From NCBI GenBank assembly GCA_002205965.3, contig NADL03000657.1:2046001-2110000 (forward strand): a DNA stretch of 64,000 bases, in the 5' to 3' direction. Shown piece after piece: positions 4,690-56,891 of the stretch; position 1 is the first letter of the stretch, and each line of letters opens with the position of its first letter. The notes under the pieces are model-generated. The model ran no database searches. It had not been told where the DNA came from and was given only the letters and a program-made list of their open reading frames with translations. The DNA comes from Kappaphycus alvarezii. Lineage: Eukaryota; Rhodophyta; Florideophyceae; Gigartinales; Solieriaceae. The translations under genes and the position numbers were made by a program.

Positions 4690-6950
4690 AGTCTAATGCG
4701 TTCAGTATCTCCTGTGGACTGCGCACGTCCTAACTATACGGTTAAGATCTAACCGGATGTACTTCGTCGTCCGTGCGCATCGGTGCTCGGGACAGGATAG
4801 CTTCGGCGATGGAGGACCACAGGGTGCAACTCAGTCGCTGGTAGATACGGCGGCGGACAACGCCAACTGTCGAGTGACACTTGGACGCGATCCGCGGAAC
4901 TAACTCCTCGATAAATGCAATAGTTCCAGGGGAAGGGGCACCTAGGGAATCAAACGCCAGAGGTCGAAACGTGAAGTTCGGCGTGTAAGGCGCAGAAGAT
5001 GGGCCAGTCGATGGAGCGGGGAGTCGTCGGGCGATGTTGCGTTCCAGGGTTGTAACCTTGTCGCGGGCCGCCAGTTCAGCAGCGCCTCCGGCAGCCTGGG
5101 TCGCCTTGGTGCGAACTGCGGCCTTGAACGGTGAAACGACGGTGATGTCACAGGCAATGGGGCGCAACGTTGTGCCTTCCGGGGTTGGTGGTGGTTGTAC
5201 AAGGATATCGGCGGGGCGGAGCTCAGTGCCCGGGACGAGGAACGGAACCTCTTGCCGAGTATCCAGACCTGCGGCGCGGGTAACGTGCGTCGCAATCGCA
5301 TTACATAGCGAGTTGTGGCGGTGACGACGGCCGAAACCAGGGCGGCAGAGGTCGGCGGCGTGATCCCCGAGGGTGTCCAAGGGGTGGTCACAGTGGTGGC
5401 AGTTGAGGGCCATGGAGTCATCATACACTGGCAGTCCGAGGTGACGGCGGAGCATGGTCTGCCAGTGTGTAGTGTGGACCTTCGTAGCTGCCGTGGGATG
5501 AGCGAAGAGAAACGCCGCAGCGGGGCTGCGGCGGAACGCTAGGCCACGGATGCGATGTCGAATGTCGGCGTCGCTATGGGCGGTCGGTTTGGGGCATTCT
5601 CCCAGGAGTAGTCGTGCCAATGTACTCTTGCCCGCGCCTCTTGCTGCACCCGTTTGAGAAGGGTTAGTGTGTTGGTGGGTGAAGCAGCTAGAGTTGGAGG
5701 GTCAAGGGTGGAAAGGTCGACTATTCCGGGGATGGAGAGGGCGAAACGGCGGAGAGAAGGCCCAGCCTGACGGAGGAGGAAGGACCGGTCGCCGCGGTAG
5801 CGGCCAGAAGCTAGTGCACAAGCACGCGGCGTGGCGTATGCGGAAGTTCGCTGCCGTGCGGGCGCAGCATCAATGATGCTGGCGGCGGCAGCGCCGTGGA
5901 GGCACGAGGCGATGCTTTCGAAGCCCTGGCCTCCGAGGTGCATGGGGAGGCACACTTGGTCCCAGGCTCGGTCCGTGAGAGCTATGCCGTGTAACTTTTC
6001 ATATGATGACCGTTGTAGATCATCAAATTCTTCAGCGGCGGACTCTGCTAAGCGCGGATCTGAGAGCTTGAATGCATGCGATAGGAGGCATGCAGAGGCA
6101 CAGATCCGGTGCATGTGGAACCGGGCGCGGGCGTCGCGGACCAGCAGGAGGCGGTCCAGGGTACGGCGGCACTGAGCAATCTTAGACCGGAGAAAACTCT
6201 CCGTGAACGTTTTGTTCCCAATGGGGGCCCCTAGAAGCGGAAAGCCGTCCCGCGAGCATTCGGCGAGAGGGAATTCCGCTAGGAGGGCTGCTCGATCCGG
6301 CGGCATGACGTGAGGCCAATGTATGCGTGTCTTCCGTTGGTTGACGTGGAACCCAACCGTGGGACCATCTCGGGCAAGGAGCCGGAGCGCCTGACGGATG
6401 GCGCCAGGGTTCCCGACGATCGTGCCGTCATCGGCGTACCATTGGCAGAGAGCAATGTTGGGGATCTCAGCAACCCGACGGATGAGGGGTTGAATCGTTA
6501 GCGAGAACAACAACATGCTGGCCGGGTCACCCTGTTGGGTGCCCTGGGCACTTGGTATGACGGTGCGATCCCGGTTCGGGACAAGCAATGGCGGTTGCAT
6601 TCGGCCATAGATCATGTTTGCGAAGCGGGCTAGCGAGGGGGCGAGCATTGGTAGGTGGTCCAGCATAGACTGCCGATCAACGCGGTTAAAGGCGTTGTTG
6701 GCGTCTATGAGGACCGTGGCGACGTTCGGGGTGGCGGAGAAGCGGCGTAGTGTCGTGCGGGTGTCGTGGACAATAGAGTCCAACCCGGCTTTAACACCAT
6801 TGGCCGTCTGATGCGGCGACAGAACCGAGTGTGAATCGGCTATTGCGGCGGGGAGCAGTGCCTTCGTCACTATCCTGCGAAGCACAGACCCGATGGCGAT
6901 CGGCGGACCTTGTCGGGAGTCGGCTGCAAACGCTGCGTTGGCGAATGCTT
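4690..6950 (-). mobile_element. RLE-type LINE with reverse transcriptase and restriction-like endonuclease, 5'-truncated
   Basis: Two overlapping minus-strand frames encode a reverse transcriptase (5539-6885) and a C-terminal nuclease (4742-5620). A one-base frame change near 5580-5620 separates them. RT landmarks are IAIGSVLRRIVTKALL at the truncated start, FNRVDRQS, QGTQQGDPASMLLF and the catalytic YADD (6427-6438). The C-terminus has CHHCDHPLDTLGDHAADLC, a CCHC knuckle, then RPADILVQ, IACDITVVSPFKAAVR and LERNIARRL, which fits a PD-(D/E)XK endonuclease of the R2/NeSL kind. No apurinic-type endonuclease is seen. RT domain 0 and any N-terminal fingers are absent, and the break at about 6947 is typical of LINE 5' truncation. 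The 3' end carries the family tail at about 4700-4740. Confidence 0.85.
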
Positions 6951-6995
6951 TTAGTTATTTCAAGTACAGCACAGTACGGCCATCTGTGTACAGTG
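6948..6995. repeat. Short repeat shared with 27.5 kb, TACAGTA-bearing
   Basis: TTTTAGTTATTTCAAGTACA followed by GCACAGTA resembles TTTTTAATTAATTTAAGTAC plus AGCACAGTA at about 27497-27530. It lies exactly where the truncated LINE begins, so it may represent the insertion site or host repeat. Confidence 0.4.
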
Positions 6996-35980: not shown

Positions 35981-38900
35981 ATTTTGCCACTATCAGGGAC
36001 TTGGATCACGATAAAGACCGGTTCAACAGGGCTATATAATCGCCAAATTGGAAACATCTAGCGCAACTCTTGGTCCCTCAAGTCGCTTGTTCTCATCCCT
36101 CGAACTAGCTCCGGACGAATCTGTCTAGGTCGACTATCACACTTGGACATCAACCATGTTCCATGCCACCTCTTCTGAATCCTCTCAGTCCGACGCTTCT
36201 CGCCTTCATACCCTCGAGAACAAGGTCACCGGCATCGAAACCCATCTCTCGCAGATCTTCAACTTGCTCCAAGCTTCCGCTGGACCGTCGAACACTCCTG
36301 CCGCAGAGCCTGCCGCCGCCGCCGCTTCAGATCCACCGGCATCTGATCCCACTGCTAAGCCCCCATCCGCCTTCGAGGTTACAAAACGGGCGTTCTCCAG
36401 TTCACACTGCCAACGTCCTCTGCAACCGCAGTTGCCGACACTCTCTACCCTCCAAGAATACGCTGAGGTCGGCAAGCTCAACAAGTACCAGCGTCCCAGC
36501 TCCGTCGCTCCATTTCCCTCCAAGAGGTTCATTCTGGAACCAGAAGGGCTCTTCGGTCGCATCAAGGCCGCCGACGTTCGTGACGGGTGGGAAGCCAAAG
36601 TACTCTGAAACGTTGGGCACAACTGTGAGACCGCCATCGCCTGCGCTCAACGCTTTACCGAGGCCCTCCAGAATAAGGACATATCGGCCGCTACCGAGTT
36701 CTTCTCTGTTCTACACCACTACTTGGAGTCCACTTACAGTCGCGTTCTGGAACGAACCGACTTCTTTACTGACTCTGTCGAGTCCGGAAATTCCGAGGCT
36801 ATCCTGCTCCAGCACTACCCTCGTGAAGACGATTACCCGTATTCGTCTGAGCTCTATCGCTCAACTAAGGCTAAGTTCGCTGAATTGCGCTCCCAGGCGT
36901 ACGCGAAGGAGTTCAACAAACCGGCCGCTCAAGGTTCTCGACCTCGGAATAATCGGTCGGGAAAAGGTCCCAAGGACTCTAAGTCCAACTAAAGCCGTCG
37001 CCTCCTCGACTCTTCGTTTCTGTCGCTATGTCCCACATCCTCTGTCGCAATACCCAGTGCGCCGCCCCCTTCTGTGCCGAAACCCTCGGCGCCGCGAAAT
37101 TCCTCGTCCGCGCTCTACGGTTTGGGGTCTACGAAAAAACCATCACAACCTCCCCTTCACGCACAAAATTCCAACTTCTTCAAATTCCTATCGATCCCCA
37201 AGACCGAGAATTCTACGACTCAGCCATATCGGATGTGCTTCACCGTTGCAGTTACGAAGAAATTTCCGAGTCGACCGCTCTTTCCTTACACCAAGATGGC
37301 TTCCCTATCTCCAACGCCTTTGTGGTAACCTCAGCAGAAAAGAAGCGGCTAGCGGTCAATCTTTCTAGACAATCTACCCTATTTCGGGATATCCCGGTTC
37401 GCATGGAAACCTTGGAAGGGTTCGCTCTAGACCTTCAAGAATCCGACATGATGTTTTCTTTCGATATCGCCAAGGGTTACCACCATTTTCGTCTACACCC
37501 CGATATTCGAAATTGGTTCGTCTTCAAAGTAGACCATCGTTATTCTCGCTGCGTTGCCCTCCCTTTCGGATGGAAACCCTCTCCCGCCTACTTCATCAAG
37601 TTCATGCGACCTTTCGTTCAATATGTTCGGGAAACCCTACGTCTTCGAATCTATCCCTACATGGACGACTTCTTGGTGGCTCTAAACCGTCCTTCGCGTC
37701 TCAAACGGCCGGCCGACAGATCGATTCTCTGTTCCGCTCGTGTGGACTTCAGAGAAAGGAGGACAAAGGTTACTGGGAAAGGACGAGTCAGATCGAGCAT
37801 TTGGGATTTCTAACCGATACAGAGCGTCCAATCTTTGGGATTACGGCTCGAAGGATGGAAAAGTTGCGAGTTATTGCCCGACAACTATTACACCAAGCAC
37901 GCTGCAATCGCCGACTAGTCGACGTACCACTGCTACGCCACTTCGCAGGTATCGATATGTCATGCTCGCTCGCTATGCCCCTCGCCCAGTTCTACACCCG
38001 ATCAATTTACGACTCCCTAGAGACGAATCTGAGCAAGAAAGGGAAACGCGTGAGGCTTCTTCACGCCGCTCTTCGGGACCTGCGCTTCTGGAGGGACCTC
38101 ACTACCAATCCTCCAGAGAGGTCTATCGCTACTCCACAGCCACCATTGCCTCTTCACTCAGACGCGTCGACGGGAGTCGGTCAGGGATGGAGATTGGGAT
38201 CGGATCTGAGGCCAGAGGTACAAGGTTGTTGGGAGGCTCGCGGACTCTGGGACCCCGTACTTCGAGTCAAGCCAATAACTTTCTTGGAACTACGGGACGT
38301 CACGGACAATATTCGCGTCTTCGCGTCGTTGCTCAAGAACGGGACTCATCTCAAGATTTGGGAGAACAATCAAGCGGTGGTATCGATACTCAATGCAATG
38401 ACCACCCAGTCACGCCCATTGATGAGAGAGCTCCGTTCGCTACACCGCTTGCTTCTCAAGCTCGGGATCACCATCGAATCACAGTATCTGCCCTCGGCAG
38501 TCAATCGTTTTGCCAACCGACTGTCACGCCTACAGAAACTCGACGATTGGAGGATCAATACCGAGTCCCTTCAGCCACTACTCGAAACTTTCCCAACAAC
38601 AATCGACAGGTTCGCAGACAGCACCAATCGGATTTGCAAGAGATTCAACAGCGATTTTTCGTCTCCTGGCTCCCTCGCCGTAGACGCTCTCTCCCAAGAT
38701 TGGCAATCCGAGGTCAATTTTTGGAACCCGTTTCTCAAGTTGATACCACTCGTCGTCGCCAAGATCATCAAGGAACAGGCCGCAGGAATCTTGGTCACGC
38801 CGTATTGGCCCGCTCAATCGTGGTTTCTCAACCTGCGCCAACTGTCACGGCCACACGTATTCGCCGCCGACAACCTCTACCTACCGTCTCTGTGGGCTCC

Positions 38901-43958: not shown

Positions 43959-44034
43959 AGCTGATCACGCAGACTGCGTAGTTATTCACACACATATGTA
44001 TGTAGTCTCGGAGCTAAAGATCGTTCTTAACGGT

Positions 44035-47000
44035 CTACTCGAAAGGGTAGCGATTCGAAGCACCGCTCGGAAACGGTTGTCGTCGTTCCTCTAGATCAAC
44101 GAGGGATATTGCGCCTTGCGGAAAACGTGGCATGTTTGCCTTGACAGCATCCACGGCCTGATCCCGGAGCATCCCTAATGGCAAATCAGAGTAGTCACAG
44201 CCGAAAGGATCCGCTAGCTCATCTGCCCATCCTTGTACCCCGAGAACACCGTAGCTGATCAGCACAAACCAAACTACAGCAAGCCAGCCTGTGAACGCGA
44301 CGAGTCCGATTGGTAAAATGGCGAGGTAGATACCCATAAAGATTCGCAAATGAGACACATATCCAAAGGGTATTGGGACCCTGGCCACACGTCTACACTC
44401 GAAAGCAGCGTTTTGGAGACTCTCCACGTAGAGCAGAACATTAAAGTATATCTCCTCTGGGAGCCCATTACGTTCCGGAGCTGTTAAACTCAGCGTTTCC
44501 GTGTAGAACAGGTAGGATCGGATAACATCAAGGCAAAACGAAACAGGCTCCTGTGATTTCAATATTTTCTGAATATCACGTTCGCCAAGAATGCTCTTTA
44601 ACCGTTTCGAGCAATGAACATCGGTACGCAAGCTTGCCGCAAGTACGATTGGAACAGCTGCGATATGACCACATATGCGATCCAAGTCACCCTCATGAAA
44701 ATATCCGGGTGCGCATGATTCCAGGAAACGGTTTGATATCAAACGGCAGTTACCAATTATTCCTTCATGCCAAAGCTCTTGCGCGCGAACATAACGATTG
44801 TGACTATCTGTCAAGCGGAAACCTAAGAGCAGGAACAATGCAAATCCCACATACTCCTGAATGTCACTGCTGATCGCGATACCCCCACAAAACCATTGTC
44901 CGCTACAGTTTTCAACATCCAGTCGAGACCTGACGAGGGAAGTAAGTCCGACGATGGCAGCCGCCCAACCCGCCAGGGCCATGAGCTCCCAGAACGGCAC
45001 GATTGTTGCAGCAAGGTAGGCACCTCGTTTTAAGTTCGACCATCGGCTTTTAGCCATGCCATTCCTTGAAGGTGGTTGATCGGAACATCTCTGAGGCGTT
45101 CCTTTGTCCAGTCTGCATGGGGGGTATCATGATTTGTAAGCAGTGTGAATGCTGGTGTTTCGAAGTGATGAGTGTAAAGTACATCTTTGACAATGGCGTG
45201 CGAATATCTATCCGTGTCAATGTCATTGAGATCTGTCCCGAATGGATCCTGCAATTCGATGGCAATGGAATACATCCTATGGAAGAATAGGGAAGAATCA
45301 CAGTGCGAGTACATGTTTCTGTCAGCAACACCACACATCAATCACACCTTGTCAATGCACAAAGATATCAGATACCTACCCTAGGATCCCAAAGGCAATC
45401 AGCGGTGACCAAAGCACGGTAAGCCATCCTGGTGACGTAAAGGCAGGTTGTCGGGAAGAAAACTTGTCAGAGGCCACCCTCTTAGTATCCAGTTTCACAA
45501 AAACAATGGATAATGAACTTACCTGACAGCTCAAACAATATGAAGGGGAGCAGCATGAACCATATTGCCAGTAATGTTTTCGTCAAAGTCCTAAATACTG
45601 GGACAGATGAAAATTCTTCAAGAACATGGCCTCTTGGAAACACTCCTCAATTGTACTGATCGGGGTCCGAACAAAGGCTGTGCGGGTAGTCGGTCGGGAA
45701 GGCTCTCTGTGAAGAAGCTGCTCACTAAAGTTGACAACCCGAAACAGCCATGCTCGGATTACGGCCGTGCAATGGAGAACCATACTGTCTGCACATGACA
45801 CTTGAGCAAGGTCACTAGATGTCATCAAAGACCCGACTTCCCGAATGTCACGCGAGCCGCGTAACTCCGCCCTGAATAACAGCGGAATTGCAGCGACCAA
45901 GCCGACCAGACGCTTCTTGTCATCGACATGCAGCGACCCGTCGCTATAGTATATATGGATATTTGCAGCGAGGCATGGCATGCGGAACGCAATCTTCCTC
46001 CAACAATCCCCCTCCCCGCTCATACCTCGCATATGCAGTTGATACAAGGAAACCAAGGAGCGAAAACGCGCCAAAAGACGCACCGTTTACGACGTCCGCA
46101 GTTATAGCAATAGTTGATCTCCACCATTCGGTATCCGAGTTATCGCCCTCATTCCTAGTGGCGTACGAAATCAGCGAGGCGCCTACAGCCCACATGAACA
46201 CCGCCAGCACCGAAAACCACGGCGTCGAGAATATCAGGTGCGTGAAAAGCGAGCGCTTTGTTCGACTCACAGCGTGACCGTCAAAAATAACATTGCCTGC
46301 TTCCGAGTCAGAAAAGTCTAAACTCGGCAGCATGAAACGGCCCGCCACCTCTTTACCACGCAAGCGCACACCAGCAACAGAAGCCGTGCCCCTTCCTATT
46401 TCAGGAGCTGGTGGAGCACATAGCTTATCTGTGTCCCATCCCGCAGCATGAACTGCGTCGAGGGCAGCGTTGGCGGCACTGTTGCAAAGCTCTTGAATCG
46501 GTAGGTCGTTAACATCGCATCCAAATGGATCAACGAGCTGTCCAGAAATGTCCTCCAGGATGAGGACGCCGTACGAAATGATCGGCGCCCATAGGATTGT
46601 AAAGAAACCAGTGTCAGCTGTCATGGATAACGGGAGAAGCGTCAACCAAATGTAAGTGAAAATGCGCTCATGGCGGCGGTAGGACGGCACAACTGCAAAC
46701 CGTTTTGTAGTTGCCAGGCGTGACACCGCCCCTCGCAATGAAACTAAACGCCCGAGTTGCGGCCCTATTATTGGAGGAATGGAACGAAAGTCGTCGTCCA
46801 AGTCCCAACCACGTCGGATTGTCGAATCCTCCACAAGAATGTACGCTTCGATCGTTTCGAAGAGATGTTCGATAGGGCTGGCAGCATCTGCAAACCGCTT
46901 TCGGTCTGCGTTAGACAACAAACCCTCTGCAGCAGATTCCGCGACCATGACCGTTCTCAGCAGCATATCCCGCAAACATAACGGAATTTGCACGATATGC

Positions 47001-49783
47001 GCCAGGACTCGCTCCTTGTCTCCAGTGTGGAAAAAGCCCGTTGGGAATGCTTGCACAAAATCAAGGGCCATGCCGCGCATCTGTAGTGCCAAGTCTGAAG
47101 AACGACTGCACCGTTATCAAAACGGCTAAGCGCATCCGCTGCCCGAAATGTAAGAATGAGGAAAAGCGCAAACCCAATATCTGCCAGGACACTCCCCTGA
47201 ACGTCAATTGGGCTGCACCACTGTAGACAATTTCCGCGGTCCTCGCCTTCCCACAAAGTGGACAGACCCCACGAGGCGTAAACAGCTGCAACAGACCACA
47301 ATGTGACAGCTAGGTAAGACGTAAATGAAATAGCTGGAAATCTGGCAATGAGGATTCTGATGGCGGACTTTAGGGTCAGAGTTCTCACGTGATTTCCGAG
47401 GTAAGGTAACTCTGATGATTGAACCACATCACTGCGACGGCTTTGGTTAAAGAGAGACCTCCACTTTCTTTTGATCTTCAACCACGGGGAACGAAGCTTC
47501 TTCAACGAGTAACGCCCAACGTTTTTATCGGCAGAGGCCTTAGGTCGCGAGTTAGTGGTCGCTTTTTTCATCAACTCTTCAAGGCCTTGAGCCTTTGGGA
47601 CAAACAGGGACCTATCATATTCTTCCTCAGTATGCACTACCGCCCGAGAACCACCGCGAGTGGTCAAGTAAATCCGATGCACAGAGTCTTGTATTTCCTG
47701 GCAGAACCGATCCAGGGGCACGTCCTCCTCGTCATATCCAAACGGGTCGTTCAATCGCAGGCCAACTGTTACCAAGTTGACAATCGAATACGCTATTGGG
47801 AGCACGTACAAGAATGTCAAAAATCCATCGTGCTGAACAATGGTCATGGTCAACATTGCCAACCACAGCGCAGCAAACACCCTAACATGCATTGTAAATG
47901 CGGTGCCAGTGGTGCTTCCTTCAACGCTACACTCTCCCACAACGCGCGATCGATTTCCCAGAGATTCTCCTGCACTGTAAACGCCTCGACCAAAAACGGC
48001 CGCTTCTTTTCGGAGAGCACTGCGCCCACTGCAGCATCTGCTGAATCCAAATAAGCCATCAACACATCCGTGCACCTCATAGGCAGCTCCCGTCCATCCC
48101 TCAACACTGCGCTCATTTCCTCGTACCCCAAAATATCCCCTAATTCGCGCCCATCTCTTCCTTCGCCCCGCAAATGTAACTTCATGGCTACCGGCAAGCA
48201 GCCAGGTAAGACAACACTCTCTCATGATCCCTCTCATGCCAATATCCTTCATGCATTAACAGACACACCGCATGCGCCAACGCATCCACTCTCGGACGAA
48301 CCCGAGTCTGCCATAAGTGCAAAGCATCCCACAGCCGATTGTACGCATCCATAGTCCAAAACGTTAACAGCAGAAACAGGCCCAAACTCGCATACCCGTG
48401 GCCGTGCTAGACAATGGCACTTGCACAGACCACCAACGGTCGCCATTCTGTCGAAACACCTCTCTATTTCTGGACAACCCCCAGGTGAGAAACACAATGA
48501 AAGCTGCCCACATAGCAGCTGCCAGCAACGCCAACATTGCGCCAAAAGGGAGATGAACACGCCTGAATCGGAGCATACGCTGCATGGCAGAAGGCGGGGA
48601 AGCGGGAGGTGATGATTTCGGGGAATACCTTGGAAATTCGAGGGCAGCGGTTGTGATAACCAGTGTAGCTGGTGAGCGGAATTTTGGGAGGGCTTGACAA
48701 GTGCGACGTAGGAAAGGTTGGAGGCAAGTGCATCCTGGAGAAGGTCTGCGGCAAAGCGAGCGCAAAGACGGGACAGAGGGATGGCGGTGGGACTGGGGTG
48801 GAAGGGGCGGGCTAGACTGCGGGCGATGTAGAAGAGGGTTGCTATGGCGTAGGTGATGAGAATGGACCAGAGGGGGGTGAACCAACGGGAATCGGGAATG
48901 AGGGAAATGGGGAGGAGAATTGCCCAGATGTATAAGAAGAGGTGGAGGTGGTTGAGATAACCGTGTGCGAGTTGGTGATGGTGCAGGCGGTGGAGGGCGT
49001 TGAGGAGGATTCTGCGGTGTCGAGGAGGGTGTTGATATGGAAGCGGGTGCCAGATCCTGCGGGAGTCTTTGAGACAGAGAGGGCAGGAAAGTTGAGCGGA
49101 GAGTCATCTTCGATGGAGGTAAAGTAGGCACGGACAGTTTGCAAAAGGTGGTGAGGAGGGGAGGGATGAGAAAAGGCGGTGGAGATGTCGGACGGGTGGA
49201 GAAGTGGGGAAAGAAGCACATCCGCGGGCGGGTGTGGTCGGGGAGGAAATGGAGCGGAAGGGAGAGCGGAATTGCAGCAAGGTGAGCGATGATACGTGAA
49301 TGAGCGTTGGGATGCCAGAGAGGGGCAGGGTATGTGAGACGGAGCTTGCGAAGAACGTGACGGAGGGAATGGTGGAGGGTGTTGAGGTGGAGTTGGGTGC
49401 GACGGCGGCGGATTGGGATTCAGACACGAGGAAGGAGAGCAGGATGAAGAGGGAAAAGGCGGCGGTGAGAAGGATTGGGGAGGGGAGGGAGAGGTTGGCC
49501 ACGAGTGTACGTGTGGTGCGGGTGGAGGAGATGCGGGTGGAGAGTGCGGTGAAGGCGACAGAGGTGAGAAGCTGGAAGAGGAGTACACGGACGGGGAGGG
49601 TGGACACGAGGTGGTGAAGGATGGTGCGTGGGGTGAGGGAGCCGAGAGTTTGGTATAGTGGGCGTGCGCGGAGGATATCGGCGAGGTCCAATCGGAGGAA
49701 AGTAGCGGACTGGGTTGGGTGCCGGTGCGGTCATGGCTGCGGTATCGAGAGGGGGAGGGCTTGTGGAAGGAAGGTTGAATCAC
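44035..49783 (-). CDS. Five-domain concatenated bestrophin-like channel, copy A
   Basis: Bestrophins are ring-shaped pentameric anion channels, about 300-400 residues per subunit. Here five such domains follow each other in about 1,850 codons. Each has the pore-helix box (D1 FSLFILLSFLVSESQSR; D2 GLFLLLTFWTMDAYNR; D3 GFALFLILTFRAADALSR; D4 FSLLGFLVSTAYARYE; D5 GFALFLLLGFRLTDSHNR). Each has a helix like HIAAVPIVL and a C-terminal DPFGxDxxDLPL box (D2 DPFGYDEEDVPL at about 47.74 kb; D3 DPFGCDVNDLP at 46.53; D4 DPFGTDLNDID at 45.24; D5 DPFGCDYSDLPL at 44.21). D1 has the degenerate ARPFHPSPTAIPL (48.80). Frame 46957-48252 runs D2 into D3; frame 45944-47092 runs D3 into D4. Two introns lie in D4. 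The start is the ATG after a TATA box. About ten one-base indels interrupt the frame, mostly where copy B is open. The tail after D5 ends RYPFE-stop. Confidence 0.85.
45277..45379 (-). other. Intron 2 of bestrophin copy A (domain 4)
   Basis: 103 bases, GTAGGTATCTG...CTTCCATAG, phase 2 (CTA GG|G). It leaves a 49-base exon (45380-45428) coding WLTVLWSPLIAFGILG. After splicing, ILGMYSIAIELQDPFGTD aligns without gaps to VLGVQGWADELADPFGCD of domain 5. Copy B equivalent: 51745-51847, same length. Confidence 0.85.
45429..45522 (-). other. Intron 1 of bestrophin copy A (domain 4)
   Basis: 94 bases, GTAAGTTC...TCACCAG, phase 1 (TCA G|GA). Removing it joins FELSG to WLTVLW, which matches AFTGWLAVVW of domain 5. 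The equivalent in copy B is 51897-51988. Confidence 0.85.
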
Positions 49784-49827
49784 GGCATGCGAGACATTGA
49801 GTTGCGCTTGGGGAAACGAAAGAGGAA

Positions 49828-49833
49828 TTTATA
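49828..49833 (-). promoter_or_regulatory. TATA box of bestrophin copy A
   Basis: TATAAA on the minus strand (in CCCGGGTATAAATTCCTC), 45 bases before the ATG at 49783. The usual 25-30-base spacing would give a leader of about 15-20 bases. Confidence 0.55.
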
Positions 49834-49839
49834 CCCGGG

Positions 49840-50430
49840 TGCAATGGTGATACGGTGACGGTTGCTGACTGGTACCCGCACGTGATTGACTGGTTTGGGA
49901 GCTCACACGTCTGTTAGGTCAATCGGTAGCATCACGGCGGCTTGCAGGGGTTATCTTGCTACTGTACTGCATGATACCTGCAAGACTTATCTCCGGAGCG
50001 CAACTCACGTCACGCCAACCCTTGAATTGACGACTGCAAATGGCCCGCCAATGAGAGATCACTTGAATCAACGCATTGGCTCGAATCTATTACCTTGCCG
50101 TTTCTTGCTTTCTCTGAGCCATCCGCCACCCGCCTCCATCCTGCTCAAGGCATTTCTATATTACTGTAACCCTTGCGGATGCCGGCCTTGTGTTCCTACG
50201 CAGGGCCCCACACGTCAGCAGCGACTGGGGCGGCTTTACTTCCGCACATTAGTACCGTATTGCTGTAGGGTAGAATGTGCGGGGCATTGCCTGACGATCA
50301 AGTCATATCAAATGTTGCTTTCGTACCGTGCTTTGTTGGTAACGAACGGGTTTAGGGTATGGGGGGGTTTCGTCTTGTCATGGGGATGCTTTCAGGGAGT
50401 CCATTTGGTAGCCGAAAGATACAAGGCCAT
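49840..50430. other. Upstream region of bestrophin copy A (inside the duplicated unit)
   Basis: Holds the promoter side of copy A and the end of the duplicated unit. No gene seen. The open frame across 49886-50566 spans the duplication junction and is not credible. It matches 56300-56891 almost base for base. Confidence 0.6.
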
Positions 50431-50506
50431 AGCTGATCACGCAGACTGCGTAGTTATTCACACACATATGTATGTAGTCTCGGAGCTAAAGATCGTTCTT
50501 AACGGT

Positions 50507-53500
50507 CTACTCGAAAGGGTAGCGATTCGAAGCACCGCTCGGAAACGGTTGTCGTCGTTCCTCTAGATCAACGAGGGATATTGCGGCCTTGCGGAAAACG
50601 TGGCATGTTTGCCTTGAAGCATCCACGGCCTGATCCCGGAGCATCCCTAATGGCAAATCAGAGTAGTCACAGCCGAAGGATCTGCTAGCTCATCTGCCCA
50701 TCCTTTGTACCCGAGAACACCGTAGCTGATCAGCACAAACCAAACCAAACAGCAAGCCAGCCTGTGAACGCGACGAGTCCGATTGGTAAAATGGCGAGGT
50801 AGATACCCATAAAGATTCGCAATGAGACACATATCCAAAGGGTATTGGGACCCTGGCCACACGTCTACACTCGAAAGCAGGCGTTTTGGAGACTCTCCAC
50901 GTAGAGCAGAACATTAAAGTATATCTCCTCTGGGAGCCCATTACGTTCCGGAGCTGTTAAACTGAGCGTTTCCGTGTAGAACAGGTAGGATCGGATAACA
51001 TCAAGGCAAAACGAAACAGGCTCCTGTGATTTCATATTTTGAATATCACGTTCGCCAAGAATGCTCTGTAACCGTTTCGAGCAATGAACATCGGTACGCA
51101 AGCTTGCCGCAAGTACGATTGGAACAGCTGCGATATGACCACATATGCGATCCAAGTCACCCTCATGAAAAGATCCGGCTGCACATGATTCCAGGAATCG
51201 GTTTGATATCAAACGGCAGTTACCAATTATTCCTTCATGCCAAAGCTCTTGCGCGAACATAACGATTGTGACTATCTGTCAGGCGGAAACCTAAGAGCAG
51301 GAACAATGCGAATCCTACATACTCCTGATGTCACTGCTGATCGCGATACCCCCACAAAAACCATTGTCCGCTACAGTTTTCAATATCCAGTCGAGACCTG
51401 ACCAGGGAAGTAAGTCCGACGATGGCAGCCGCCCAACCCGCCAGGGCCATGAGCTCCCAGAACGGCACGATTGTTGCAGCAAGGTAGGCACCTCGTTTTA
51501 AGTTCGACCATCGACTTTTAGCCATGCCATTCCTTGAAGGTGGTTGATCTGGAACATCTCTGAGGCGTTCCTTTGTCCAGTCTGCATGGGGGTATCATGA
51601 TTTGTAAGCAGTGTGAATGCTGGTGTTTCGAAGTGATGAGTGTAAAGTACATCTTTGACAATGGCGTGCGAATATCTATCCGTGTCAATGTCATTGAGAT
51701 CTGTCCCGAATGGATCCTGCAATTCGATGGCAATGGAATACATCCTATGGAAGAATAGGGAAGAATCACAGTGCAAGTACATGTTTCTGTCAGCAACACC
51801 ATACATCAGTCACAATTTGTCAATGCACAAAGAGATCAGATACCTACCCTAGGATCCCAAAGGCAATCAGCGGTGACCAAAGCACGGTAAGCCATCCTGG
51901 TGACGTAAGGCAGGTTGGAGAAGAAAACTTGTCAGAGGGCACTCTCTTACTATCCAGCTTCACAAAAAAAATTGGATAATGAACTTACCTGACAGCTCAA
52001 ACAAAATGAAGGGGAGCAGCATGAACCATATTGCCAGTAATGTTTTCGTCAAAGTCCTAAATACTGGGGACAAGTGAAAGTTCTTCAAGAACATGGCCTC
52101 TTGAAAACACTCCTCAATCGTACTGATCGGGGTCCGAACAAAGGCTGTGCGGGTAGTCGGTCGGGAAGGCTCTCTGTGAAGAAGCTGTCCACTAAAGTTG
52201 ACAACCCGAAACAGCCATGCTCGGATTACGGCTGTGCAATGGAGAACCATACTGTCGCACATGACACTTGAGCAAGGTCACTAGACGTCATCAAAGACCC
52301 GACTTCCCGAATGTCACGAGAGCCGCGTAACTCCGCCCTGAATAACAGCGGAATTGCAGCGACTAAGCCGACCAGGCGCTTCTTGTCATCGACGCAGCGA
52401 CCCGTCGCGATAGTATATATGGATATTTGCAGCGAGCGCATGGCATGCGGAACGCAATCTTCCCTCCAACAACCCACCCGCCATACCTCGCATATGCAGT
52501 TGACACAAGGAAACCAAGGAGCGAAAACGCGCCAAAAGATGCACCGTTTACGACGTCCGCAGGTTATAGCAATAGTTGATCTCCACCATTCAGTATCCGA
52601 GTTATCGCCCTCATTCCTAGTGGCGTACGAAATCAGCGAGGCGCCTACAGCCCACAGGAACACCGCCAGCACCGAAAACCACGGCGTCGAGATATCAGGT
52701 GCGTGAAAAGCGAGCGCTTTGTTCGACTCACAGCGTGCCGTCAAAAATAACATTGTCTGCTTCCGAGTCAGAAAAGTCTAAACTCGGCAGCATGAAACGG
52801 CCCGCCACCTCTTTACCACGCAAGCGCACACCAGCAACAGAAGCCGTGCCCCTTCCTATTTCAGGAGCTGGTGGAGCACATAGCTTATCTGTGTCCCATC
52901 CCGCAGCATGAACTGCGTCGAGGGCAGCATTGGCGGCACTGTTGCAAAGCTCTTGAATCGGTAGGTCGTTAACATCGCATCCAAACGGATCAACGAGCTG
53001 TCCAGAAATGTCTTCCAGGATGAGGACGCCGTACGAAATGATCGGCGCCCAGGATTGTAAAGAAACCAGTGTCAGCTGTCATGGATAACGAGAAGCGTCA
53101 ACCAAATGTAAGTGAAAATGCGCTCATGGCGGCGGTAGGACGGCACAACTGCAAACCGTTTTGTAGTTGCCAGGCGTGACACCGCCCCTCGCAATGAAAC
53201 TAAACGCCCGAGTTGCGGCCCTATTATTGGAGGAATGGAACGAAAGTCGTCGTCCAAGTCCCAACCACGTCGGATTGTCGAATCCTCCACAAGAATGTAC
53301 GCTTCGATCGTTTCGAAGAGATGTTCGATAGGGCTGGCAGCATCTGCAAACCGCTTTCGGTCTGCGTTAGACAACAAACCCTCTGCAGCAGATCCGCGAC
53401 CATGACCGTTCTCAGCAGCATATCCCGCAAACATAACGGAATTTGCACGATATGCGCCAGGACTCGCTCCTTGTCTCCAGTGTGGAAAAAGCCCGTTGGG

Positions 53501-56244
53501 AATGCTTGCACAAAATCAAGGGCCATGCCGCGCATCTGTAGTGCCAAGTCTTGAAGAACGACTGCACCGTTATCAAAACGGCTAAGCGCATCCGCTGCCC
53601 GAAATGTAAGAATGAGGAAAAGCGCAAACCCAATATCTGCCAGGACACTCCCCTGAACGTCAATTGGGCTGCACCACTGTAGACAATTTCCGCGGTCCTC
53701 GCCTTCCCACAAAGTGGACAGACCCCACGAGGCGTAAACAGCTGCAACAGACCACAATGTGACAGCTAGGTAAGACGTAAATGAAATAGCTGGAAATCTG
53801 GCAATGAGGATTCTGATGGCGGACTTTAGGGTCAGAGTTCTCACGTGATTTCCGAGGTAAGGTAACTCTGATGATTGAACCACATCACTGCGACGGCTTT
53901 GGTTAAAGAGAGACCTCCACTTTCTTTTGATCTTCACCACGGGGAACGAAGCTTCTTCAACGAGTAACGCCCAACGTTTTTATCGGCAGAGGCCTTAGGT
54001 CGCGAGTTAGTGGTCGCTTTTTTCATCAACTCTTCAAGGCCTTGAGCCTTTGGGACAAACAGGGACCTATCATATTCTTCCTCAGTATGCACTACCGCCC
54101 GAGAACCACCGCGAGTGGTCAAGTAAATCCGATGCACAGAGTCTTGTATTTCCTGGCAGAACCGATCTAGGGGCACGTCCTCCTCGTCATATCCAAACGG
54201 GTCGTTCAATCGCAGGCCAACTGTTACCAAGTTGACAATCGAATACGCTATTGGGAGCACGTACAAGAATGTCAAAAATCCATCGTGCTGAACAATGGTC
54301 ATGGTCAACATTGCCAACCACAGCGCAGCAAACACCCTAACATGCATTGTAAATGCGGGTGCCAGTGGTGCTTCCTTCAACGCTACACTCTCCCACAACG
54401 CGCGATCGATTTCCCAGAGATTCTCCTGACTGTAAACGCCTCGACCAAAAACGGCCGCTTCTTTTCGGAGAGCACTGCGCCCACTGCAGCATCTGCTGAA
54501 TCCAAATAAGCCATCAACACATCCGTGCACCTCATAGGCAGCTCCCGTCCATCCCTCAACACTGCGCTCATTTCCTCGTACCCCAAAATATCCCCTAATT
54601 CGCGCCCATCTCTTCCTTCGCCCCGCAAATGTAACTTCATGGCTACCGGCAAAGCAGCCAGGTAAGACAACACTCTCTCATGATCCCTCTCATGCCAATA
54701 TCCTTCATGCATTAACAGACACACCGCATGCGCCAACGCATCCACTCTCGGACGAACCCGAGTCTGCCATAAGTGCAAAGCATCCCACAGCCGATTGTAC
54801 GCATCCATAGTCCAAAACGTTAACAGCAGAAACAGGCCCAAACTCGCATACCCCGTGGCCGTGCTAGACAATGGCACTTGCACAGACCACCAACGGTCGC
54901 CATTCTGTCGAAACACCTCTCTATTTCTGGACAACCCCCAGGTGAGAAACACAATGAAAGCTGCCCACATAGCAGCTGCCAGCAACGCCAACATTGCGCC
55001 AAAAGGGAGATGAACACGCCTGAATCGGAGCATACGCTGCATGGCAGAAGGCGGGGAAGCGGGAGGTGATGATTTCGGGGAATAACCTTGGAAATTCGAG
55101 GGCAGCGGTTGTGATAACCAGTGTAGCTGGTGAGCGGAATTTTGGGAGGGCTTGACAAGTGCGACGTAGGAAAGGTTGGAGGCAAGTGCATCCTGGAGAA
55201 GGTCTGCGGCAAAGCGAGCGCAAAGACGGGACAGAGGGATGGCGGTGGGACTGGGGTGGAAGGGGCGGGCTAGACTGCGGGCGATGTAGAAGAGGGTTGC
55301 TATGGCGTAGGTGATGAGAATGGACCAGAGGGGGGTGAACCAACGGGAATCGGAATGAGGGAAATGGGGAGGAGAATTGCCCAGATGTATAAGAAGAGGT
55401 GGAGGTGGTTGAGATAACCGTGTGCGAGTTGGTGATGGTGCAGGCGGTGGAGGGCGTTGAGGGAGGATTCTGCGGTGTCGAGGAGGGTGTTGATATGGAA
55501 GCGGGTGCCAGATCCTGCGGGAGTCTTTGAGACAGAGAGGGCAGGAAAGTTGAGCGGAGAGTCATCTTCGATGGAGGTAAAGTAGGCACGGACAGTTTGC
55601 AAAAGGTGGTGAGGAGGGGAGGGATGAGAAAAGGCGGTGGAGATGTCGGACGGGTGGAGAAGTGGGGAAAGAAGCACATCCGCGGGCGGGGTGTGGTCGG
55701 GGAGGAAATGGAGCGGAAGGGAGAGCGGAATTGCAGCAAGGTGAGCGATGATACGTGAATGAGCGTTGGGATGCCAGAGAGGGGCAGGGTATGTGAGACG
55801 GAGCTTGCGAAGAACGTGACGGAGGGAATGGTGGAGGGTGTTGAGGTGGAGTTGGGTGCGACGGCGGCGGGATTGGGATTCAGACACGAGGAAGGAGAGC
55901 AGGATGAAGAGGGAAAAGGCGGCGGTGAGAAGGATTGGGGAGGGGAGGGAGAGGTTGGCCACGAGTGTACGTGTGGTGCGGGTGGAGGAGATGCGGGTGG
56001 AGAGTGCGGTGAAGGCGACAGAGGTGAGAAGCTGGAAGAGGAGTACACGGACGGGGAGGGTGGACACGAGGTGGTGAAGGATGGTGCGTGGGGTGAGGGA
56101 GCCGAGAGTTTGGTATAGTGGGCGTGCGCGGAGGATATCGGCGAGGTCCAATCGGAGGAAAGTAGCGGACTGGGGTTGGGTGCCGGTGCGGTCATGGCTG
56201 CGGTATCGAGAGGGGGAGGGCTTGTGGAAGGAAGGTTGAATCAC
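50507..56244 (-). CDS. Five-domain concatenated bestrophin-like channel, copy B
   Basis: Second complete copy of the five-domain gene with the same start (MIQPSFHKPSPSRYRSHD), the same two introns and the same stop. Domain 1 is open here in one 314-codon frame (55300-56244), where copy A is shifted. The D1-D2 linker is continuous (SNFQGYSPKSS; PPASPPSAMQRMLRF), where copy A lacks one base. Domain 2 is open over 54383-55042. Conversely, copy B is shifted at the end of D1 (SLIP|DSRW), in D3 and repeatedly in D4-D5, where copy A is open. At the D4-D5 linker each copy carries one different indel (run of 6 versus 5 G near 51590; one extra T in GATCTGGAAC near 51550). Either the two genes are one sequence with independent read errors, or both decay separately from an intact parent. 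Confidence 0.8.
51745..51847 (-). other. Intron 2 of bestrophin copy B
   Basis: 103 bases, identical borders (GTAGGTATCTG...CCATAG) to the copy A intron at the same position and phase. Confidence 0.8.
51897..51988 (-). other. Intron 1 of bestrophin copy B
   Basis: 92 bases with the same GTAAGTTC donor and CACCAG acceptor as in copy A; differs from it by small indels in its interior, as expected for intron sequence. Confidence 0.8.
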
Positions 56245-56288
56245 GGCATGCGAGACATTGAGTTGCGCTTGGGGAAACGAAAGAGGAA

Positions 56289-56294
56289 TTTATA
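56289..56294 (-). promoter_or_regulatory. TATA box of bestrophin copy B
   Basis: TATAAA on the minus strand, 45 bases before the ATG at 56244, in the same context as in copy A. Both copies therefore keep their own core promoter. Confidence 0.55.
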
Positions 56295-56891
56295 CCCGGG
56301 TGCAATGGTGATACGGTGACGGTTGCTGACTGGTACCCGCACGTGATTGACTGGTTTGGGAGCTCACACGTCTGTTAGGTCAATCGGTAGCATCACGGCG
56401 GCTTGCAGGGGTTATCTTGCTACTGTACTGCATGATACCTGCAAGACTTATCTCCGGAGCGCAACTCACGTCACGCCAACCCTTGAATTGACGACTGCAA
56501 ATGGCCCGCCAATGAGAGATCACTTGAATCAACGCATTGGCTCGAATCTATTACCTTGCCGTTTCTTGCTTTCTCTGAGCCATCCGCCACCCGCCTCCAT
56601 CCTGCTCAAGGCATTTCTATATTACTGTAACCCTTGCGGATGCCGGCCTTGTGTTTCCTACGCAGGGCCCCACACGTCAGCAGCGACTGGGGCGGCTTTA
56701 CTTCCGCACATTAGTACCGTATTGCTGTAGGGTAGAATGTGCGGGGCATTGCCTGACGATCAAGTCATATCAAATGTTGCTTTTCGTACCGTGCTTTGTT
56801 GGTAACGAACGGGTTAGGGTATGGGGGGTTTCGTCTTGTCATGGGGATGCTTTCAGGGAGTCCATTTGGTAGCCGAAAGATACAAGGCCAT

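Follow-up and report, generated by a model that had tools for sequence, protein, structure and literature searches.

A gene for five bestrophin domains in one chain in the red seaweed Kappaphycus alvarezii, with relatives in other red seaweeds: a candidate single-chain pentameric channel

We report that the minus strand of a 64,000-nucleotide stretch of the Kappaphycus alvarezii genome (hereafter the window) carries a gene with five bestrophin domains, D1 to D5, which is present as copy A at approximately 49.7-44.0 kb and as the tandem copy B at 56.3-50.5 kb (Table 1). The initial annotation of this DNA had read five such domains in order on one strand of copy A; they were found there and again in copy B, with starts 1.0-1.3 kb apart (separations in copy A of 1,061, 1,014, 1,274 and 1,252 bases). 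Also seen among the open reading frames were the stop-free passages that it had listed, i.e. across the D2-D3 and D3-D4 borders in copy A and across D1-D2 in copy B, and the TATA box that it had placed before the gene is present, its function being putative. Its claim of five DPFG boxes holds for four good ones, while that of D1 is degenerate (ARPFHPSPTAIPL). Elsewhere in the window, the open reading frame 574-1278 encodes a RING finger (PF13639, 46 bits), and those at 5539-6954 and 36983-37813 encode reverse transcriptase (PF00078) and are probably the remains of retroelements.

Table 1. Positions in the window of the two tandem copies of the five-domain gene and of their features
Feature	Position	Strand	Remarks
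Tandem unit 1 (copy A)	43959..50430		First of two tandem 6.5-kb units, the whole gene being duplicated
Tandem unit 2 (copy B)	50431..56891		98.35% identity to unit 1
TATA-box-like TATAAA	49828..49833	-	Upstream of copy A; putative, read from the letters
Copy A D1, diverged, degenerate DPFG box	48720..49616	-	HMM 153 bits; Pfam 45.6 bits on the open frame with the C-terminal part of D1
Copy A D2	47623..48555	-	HMM 258 bits; Pfam 54 bits on a piece
Copy A D3	46415..47541	-	HMM 303 bits; Pfam 75.7 bits
Copy A D4, two introns inside	45165..46267	-	HMM 271 bits; Pfam 17.1 bits, below cut-off, frame-broken piece
Copy A D5	44095..45015	-	HMM 298 bits; Pfam 114 bits
Copy A D4 intron GTAAGT...CACCAG	45429..45522	-	From the L020 copy of the same gene: position common to Y and Z paralogues
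Copy A D4 intron GTAGGT...CCATAG	45277..45379	-	From the L020 copy of the same gene: position common to Y and most Z paralogues
Copy A stop codon	44035..44037	-	End of open reading frame 44035-45126
Copy B D1	55178..56076	-	Pfam 42.4 bits on a piece, plus aligner/HMM
Copy B D2	54078..55012	-	Pfam match on a piece, plus aligner/HMM
Copy B D3	52875..53996	-	Pfam 23.5 bits (below cut-off), plus aligner/HMM
Copy B D4	51633..52687	-	Aligner and HMM only, without Pfam match
Copy B D5	50570..51483	-	Aligner and HMM only, without Pfam match

Gene models were computed with a protein-to-DNA aligner that tolerates frameshifts and allows GT-AG introns, using as guide two homologues joined end to end. The spliced-alignment scores were 2548 for copy A and 2284 for copy B. 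Alignment nulls cover two loci, copy A and locus L013 of the same genome, and with a shuffled guide and on the other strand they gave 26.1 and 20.7 for copy A and 21.0 and 28.3 for L013. The models contain 11 (copy A) and 19 (copy B) frame corrections, and zero stop codons were met in copies A and B and in a third copy described below (L020), where it should be kept in mind that the aligner penalises stops and may dodge them. Two introns proposed by the aligner were set aside because the frame is open at these places: a 153-base 'intron' at 47520-47368, at the D2-D3 border of the window gene, is probably spurious, and a 60-base intron after D1 in another gene of the family (the Y-type gene, see below) was treated as such. 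The weakest domain of the window gene is D1 (153 bits in copy A vs 258-303 for the others), which has a long branch and an odd letter make-up, and it may have changed role. Inspected by eye, this D1 is rich in proline and serine and has no normal DPFG box.

The family named in the initial annotation, PF01062, was the wrong one, the profile that is matched being PF25539 (Bestrophin_2). PF01062, the animal-type bestrophin profile, gave sub-threshold matches alone in the homologues and one locus frame (13.2, 19.3 and 20.4 bits vs a cut-off of 24.2), and a search of the whole genome with it returned no match and is uninformative, as no control matched either. The PF25539 cut-off was passed by the homologues, by the pieces of copy A (the D4 piece excepted) and by other loci of the same genome. 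Specifically, on the raw open frames of copy A this profile matched a piece of each domain, with D4 below the cut-off of 27; in copy B the D1 and D2 pieces matched and D3 was under the cut-off, while no match was obtained for D4 and D5, the frames of which are too broken in this copy. Counting with profiles gave the five domains that had been predicted, both in the conceptual products (HMM) and in annotated homologues (Pfam, PF25539); the HMM used for this count derives from five of these homologues and is not independent, while Pfam is. Precomputed Pfam annotation of the protein-search hits listed PF25539 alone. Our own Pfam scan, which covered 14 of the 52 homologues and a frame from one locus, detected bestrophin families and no rhodopsin domain, the only other match being a weak and unrelated one in P0003. 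In the DPFG(x)D box the P, the G and two D columns reach a conservation of at least 85% at each of the five positions, the exception being D1 of the window gene. In hydropathy profiles of four chains, every domain shows hydrophobic blocks for TM1, for TM2 and at its C-terminal side, and TM3 and TM4 are not resolved.

A PF25539 profile search of the 336-Mb assembly (884 contigs) gave 51 matches on nine contigs, which correspond to ten multi-domain and two single-domain loci. Five domains could be modelled in nine of the ten multi-domain loci: the two in the window, one each on contigs C24, C862 and C447, and two each on C774 and C96. The tenth (L019, C846:187400-197300) is of Y-type, with five in-frame stops, parts of four domains and a damaged D3, and is probably a pseudogene. 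At the single-domain loci, on C476 and C692 (L021, L022), there is a bestrophin gene that has one domain and separate introns of its own. Pairs of loci are about 95-97% identical over most of their length, which suggests that several of the five-domain loci are allelic pairs, and we infer approximately four distinct five-domain genes, i.e. X (the window gene), Y and two Z genes. The C24 locus (L020), in which D1 is partial, is a third copy of the window gene and matches at 95.7% the upstream flank of copy B together with the downstream flank of copy A, the arrangement that a haplotype with a single copy would show. The clearest frame is found on C862, where three domains, with three Pfam stretches, share a raw open frame that is 1,115 residues long, and in the second Z gene (L016) a single frame correction was needed across all five domains.

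Homologues were collected in three protein searches, each of which scored about 8,000 candidates within a length window, and these yielded 52 distinct proteins. The searched lengths together span approximately 200-2,900 residues, so that two- and six-domain proteins could have surfaced; neither a sixth domain nor another domain order was present among the 52. Parts of all five domains are present in 17 of them, of which five are annotated proteins and twelve come from 'lgn' contigs and are presumably direct gene calls; twelve of the 17 start inside D1. The remaining ones comprise parts of D1-D4 (16/52), D1-D2 (1/52), the D4 tail or more together with D5 (14/52), a D5-type domain alone (3/52) and a bacterial-like single domain (1/52). 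All five domains are near full length in P0029 (Gracilariopsis chorda BWQ96_08484, 1821 aa), P0031 (Gracilaria domingensis, 1859 aa, with the database name 'Bestrophin/UPF0187') and P0033, which has 1,816 residues on a contig of 6,448 bases. Both ends are present in P0030 and P0036 from Agarophyton chilense, with a gap in D5 and in D2, respectively; owing to the gap, the D5 of P0030 is matched in two parts and the HMM gives six stretches for this protein, where Pfam gives five. Five Pfam stretches each were obtained for P0022, P0025, P0029, P0030, P0031 and P0036, four for P0024, P0026, P0027 and P0041, and three for P0023. P0041, a EukProt entry with a transcriptome label, carries D1-D4 in one frame and runs out of frame before D5. 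The search of relatives that had been suggested for five-domain homologues was thus successful in Gracilariopsis chorda, Gracilaria domingensis and Agarophyton chilense, and further loci came from the same genome; A. chilense is a florideophyte red alga and the other two species are its relatives. With seven more five-domain loci in the genome and the 17 of 52 homologues, the architecture does not depend on the frame-broken copies in the window, and on these gene and protein sequences a single-chain five-domain bestrophin can be regarded as established.

As assembled, copies A and B are frame-broken, so that the window gene in particular is only putatively functional. It might be that these X-type copies are decaying pseudogenes and that no channel is produced from the locus, a reading under which the family would still be real and which is compatible with the explanation that we prefer. 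The number of frame corrections in both copies would fit decay, as would the D1 of the X-type, with its proline and serine richness, odd make-up, long branch and degenerate box, and the clearly broken relative L019 with its five in-frame stops. On the other hand, no stop was met in the models of A, B and L020 (with the reservation given above), the intron sites are preserved in the L020 copy, and the D5 of the X-type has a relative elsewhere, P0001, that is 56% identical to it. In addition, over 49.7-46.6 kb copies A and B are separated by 1 substitution and 15 indels, each of one or two bases, with more substitutions further on; over that interval this is the pattern of long-read error and not of decay, and we infer that the indels are sequencing errors of the long-read assembly. 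Taken together, we regard decay of the window copies as unlikely, while giving it appreciable weight.

The position of introns bears on the question of whether the domains share one transcript. The two D4 introns in L020 lie at domain columns 258 and 274, of which the former is common to 7/7 loci (L013-L018, L020) and the latter to 6/7. In the incomplete homologues the D4 match stops at column 73 in 13 of the 16 D1-D4 proteins, and an intron lies at column 74 in six loci of the Y and Z types; likewise, it starts at columns 273-290 in 12 of the 14 proteins with the D4 tail and D5, beside the intron at 274. These breakpoints at D4 introns imply that in those species the domain borders lie inside exons and the splice sites inside D4. 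Every domain border is crossed by several homologues, and the linkers between domains are 10-50 residues long, that between D3 and D4 measuring 34-42 residues in 12/12 chains. Given the open frames and the conserved introns inside D4, separate transcripts for each domain are very unlikely, and the gene would be transcribed as one unit comprising all domains.

Two trees address the origin of the five positions. The first was computed from 88 domain rows, with pieces of fewer than 200 columns dropped and copy B, L017, L019 and L022 not entered; here D1 to D4 each form one clade (100/100), as does D5 once the unassigned EukProt protein P0015 is included. In the second, with 94 rows (from 18 chosen chains, three further single-domain rows and an outgroup of 12 bacterial rows), D1 to D5 form one clade each with support from 100/99 to 100/100, and the five positions jointly form one clade (96/81) whose next branch is the single-domain gene of this genome. 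Identity between the domains of a chain is 20-33% in the seven chains compared, and the same position in different chains has a median identity of 40-48%, near-identical copies from this genome included. These position-wise clades and identities indicate that the chain was built by duplication of one domain before the species and paralogues split, and the order of the domains has not changed since then. Bacterial single-domain relatives were found in Planctomycetota, Acidobacteriota and Myxococcota, with 26-43% identity to a D5-type query over the best segment (24 loci), in a scan that used one short pattern and is not a census.

Purifying selection acts on all five domains, and about equally. 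Between the Z genes L015 and L016 the non-synonymous differences are 0.15-0.20 per site and the synonymous ones 0.69-0.90 in every domain, and between Y and Z the corresponding values are 0.30-0.34 and 0.78-0.87; a dN/dS ratio is given only for D3 (0.124), since synonymous sites are saturated in the other domains. Conservation of at least 85% in each of the five positions is seen for 17 alignment columns, and the characteristic W, R, H, D and LP residues are retained throughout.

The pore neck was located by alignment with KpBest, the neck positions of which we take to be I62, I66 and F70 in author numbering, and these columns depend on an alignment in which identity to the bacterial rows is about 20-26%. 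A hydrophobic neck in TM2 is present, with T or S at the middle position in some D4 rows. At the upper neck, in counts that include near-identical copies from this genome, W is found in D1 (17/19), L in D2 (39/39) and F in D3 (37/40), D4 (34/39) and D5 (30/39), and the lower neck, counted in the same way, has F in 18/19 D1, 39/39 D2, 39/40 D3, 25/25 D4 and 34/39 D5 rows. The usual triads are W-V-F (D1), L-L-F (D2), F-L/M-F (D3), F-variable-F (D4) and F-L-F (D5); exceptions occur in a few chains, and in the window gene the triads of D1 and D4 are F-I-F and F-S-F, respectively. Architecture, its conservation and the position-specific divergence are in this way documented at the level of sequence. 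The position aligned with KpBest I180, presumably the second constriction, is variable, mostly polar or small and not a conserved hydrophobic residue in all five domains, and the pore may differ from that of KpBest at this place. By eye, D2, D3 and D5 of most chains inspected have a pair of cysteines, separated by a few residues, ahead of TM2, which D1 and D4 have not; a position-specific disulphide is possible.

KpBest (PDB 6iv3, 4wd8 and others; PF25539) belongs to the same family, with E-values of about 1e-17 between the D5 of the window and KpBest chains, and its neck and DPFG motifs align with those of the five-domain chains. Its PDB entries list five chains each: in KpBest every chain has a single domain and the pore is built of five identical chains, whereas here five different domains are present in one chain. 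The D5 of the window also matches the C-terminal part of a bestrhodopsin (PDB 7pl9, 'Rhodopsin'; E 1.8e-11), likewise an algal bestrophin within a long multi-domain chain. Such rhodopsin-bestrophin fusions, the bestrhodopsins, were reportedly described by Rozenberg et al. in 2022; one bestrophin domain is fused to rhodopsins and there are still five chains per pore. With no rhodopsin domain in the proteins scanned, an identity as bestrhodopsins was rejected. A weak match (E 0.05) links the D5 of the window to PDB 7ek1, a 'Bestrophin-like protein' which we take to be VCCN1, and channels of this type have one domain per chain. The same five-domain family includes P0031 of Gracilaria domingensis and P0029 of Gracilariopsis chorda, whose N-terminal extensions, judged by eye, are unlike a plastid transit peptide and differ in this from the VCCN1 kind; with 12 acidic vs 8 (P0029) and 6 (P0031) basic residues, their acidic character speaks against such a peptide. 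Plant bestrophin-like channels of the VCCN1 kind are, like the red-algal chains, relatives of bestrophins from photosynthetic eukaryotes (PMC5948301).

The database labels of P0029 and P0031 say bestrophin or hypothetical protein and nothing more, and no text remarking on their five domains was found in the open-licence literature searched, where no paper containing both 'bestrophin' and 'Gracilaria' was found either. Among the matches listed from this literature, outside which lie preprints and most subscription papers, a chain with several bestrophin domains is undescribed in the titles and the beginnings of abstracts.

Bestrophins of known structure are pentamers around one pore, with both ends of the protomer in the cytosol. 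We propose that the locus encodes one polypeptide of approximately 1,700-1,850 residues, as judged from the relatives, with D1-D5 in fixed order, and that the five domains go back to a single bestrophin domain, which was duplicated internally before the divergence of the sampled species and of the paralogues in this genome. The chain would wrap once, from D1 to D5, into a single, complete and non-symmetric bestrophin pore, with linkers of approximately 10-50 residues on the cytosolic side and with position-specific neck residues of a kind that would be impossible in a homopentamer, and the product would work as a gated ion channel in a cell membrane, probably for small anions. That one chain makes one pore is the best reading given that known members are pentameric, that the domains are five and that the pore residues are conserved by position; closure of the ring within one chain, conductance, the ion and the membrane would follow from this reading. 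We hold with good confidence that the five-domain chain closes on itself as one asymmetric pore, arose by duplication and has a channel role. It is likewise likely, with a shade more reserve, that each chain alone is a whole asymmetric pore and the first known natural covalent pentameric concatemer, with an order of domains fixed before the sampled red seaweeds diverged.

Another way in which a real five-domain chain could work is that pores form between chains, domain-swapped or clustered, in rings that mix several polypeptides, and linkers of the length seen here might allow swapping. We consider this improbable, since every chain with both ends present has five domains, a number that matches the pentamer, the position-specific neck residues are conserved and a covalent set of five closes most simply on itself. 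There is still less reason to think that the chain is a membrane protein of bestrophin fold that no longer conducts, e.g. one that serves the genome's single-domain bestrophin as scaffold or regulator: the polar, small or variable residues at the position of KpBest I180 in all five domains would agree with it, but the neck phenylalanine and the W, R, H, D and LP columns are retained at all five positions and selection is similar across them, and we rate it as distinctly improbable. Five separate tandem single-domain genes that mimic one chain, as the regular spacing of the domains might suggest, are refuted by the three-domain open frame of 1,115 residues, by P0033, which spans all five domains, by the conserved introns inside D4 and not between domains and by the homologues that cross every border, and their probability is negligible.

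A single chain that closes into one asymmetric pore would have its counterpart in the Nav/Cav channels, which have four domains in one chain, tetrameric channels having been turned into single chains in nature. There, too, a homo-oligomeric pore has become one chain in which the positions diverge and the order is kept; the likeness is one of analogy and not of membership, as the fold is unrelated and four-fold, whereas the red-algal chains are bestrophins and five-fold. We know of no natural five-fold single-chain channel. If the ring closes within one chain, this would be an asymmetric bestrophin in which each position can be mutated alone, for which homopentamers need engineered concatemers. 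The family might, as speculation, have relevance to the anion, bicarbonate or osmotic physiology of red seaweeds. Finally, with five repeats that have their own conserved necks, in several paralogues and species, it would lend itself well to the study of how fixed heteromers evolve from symmetric oligomers.
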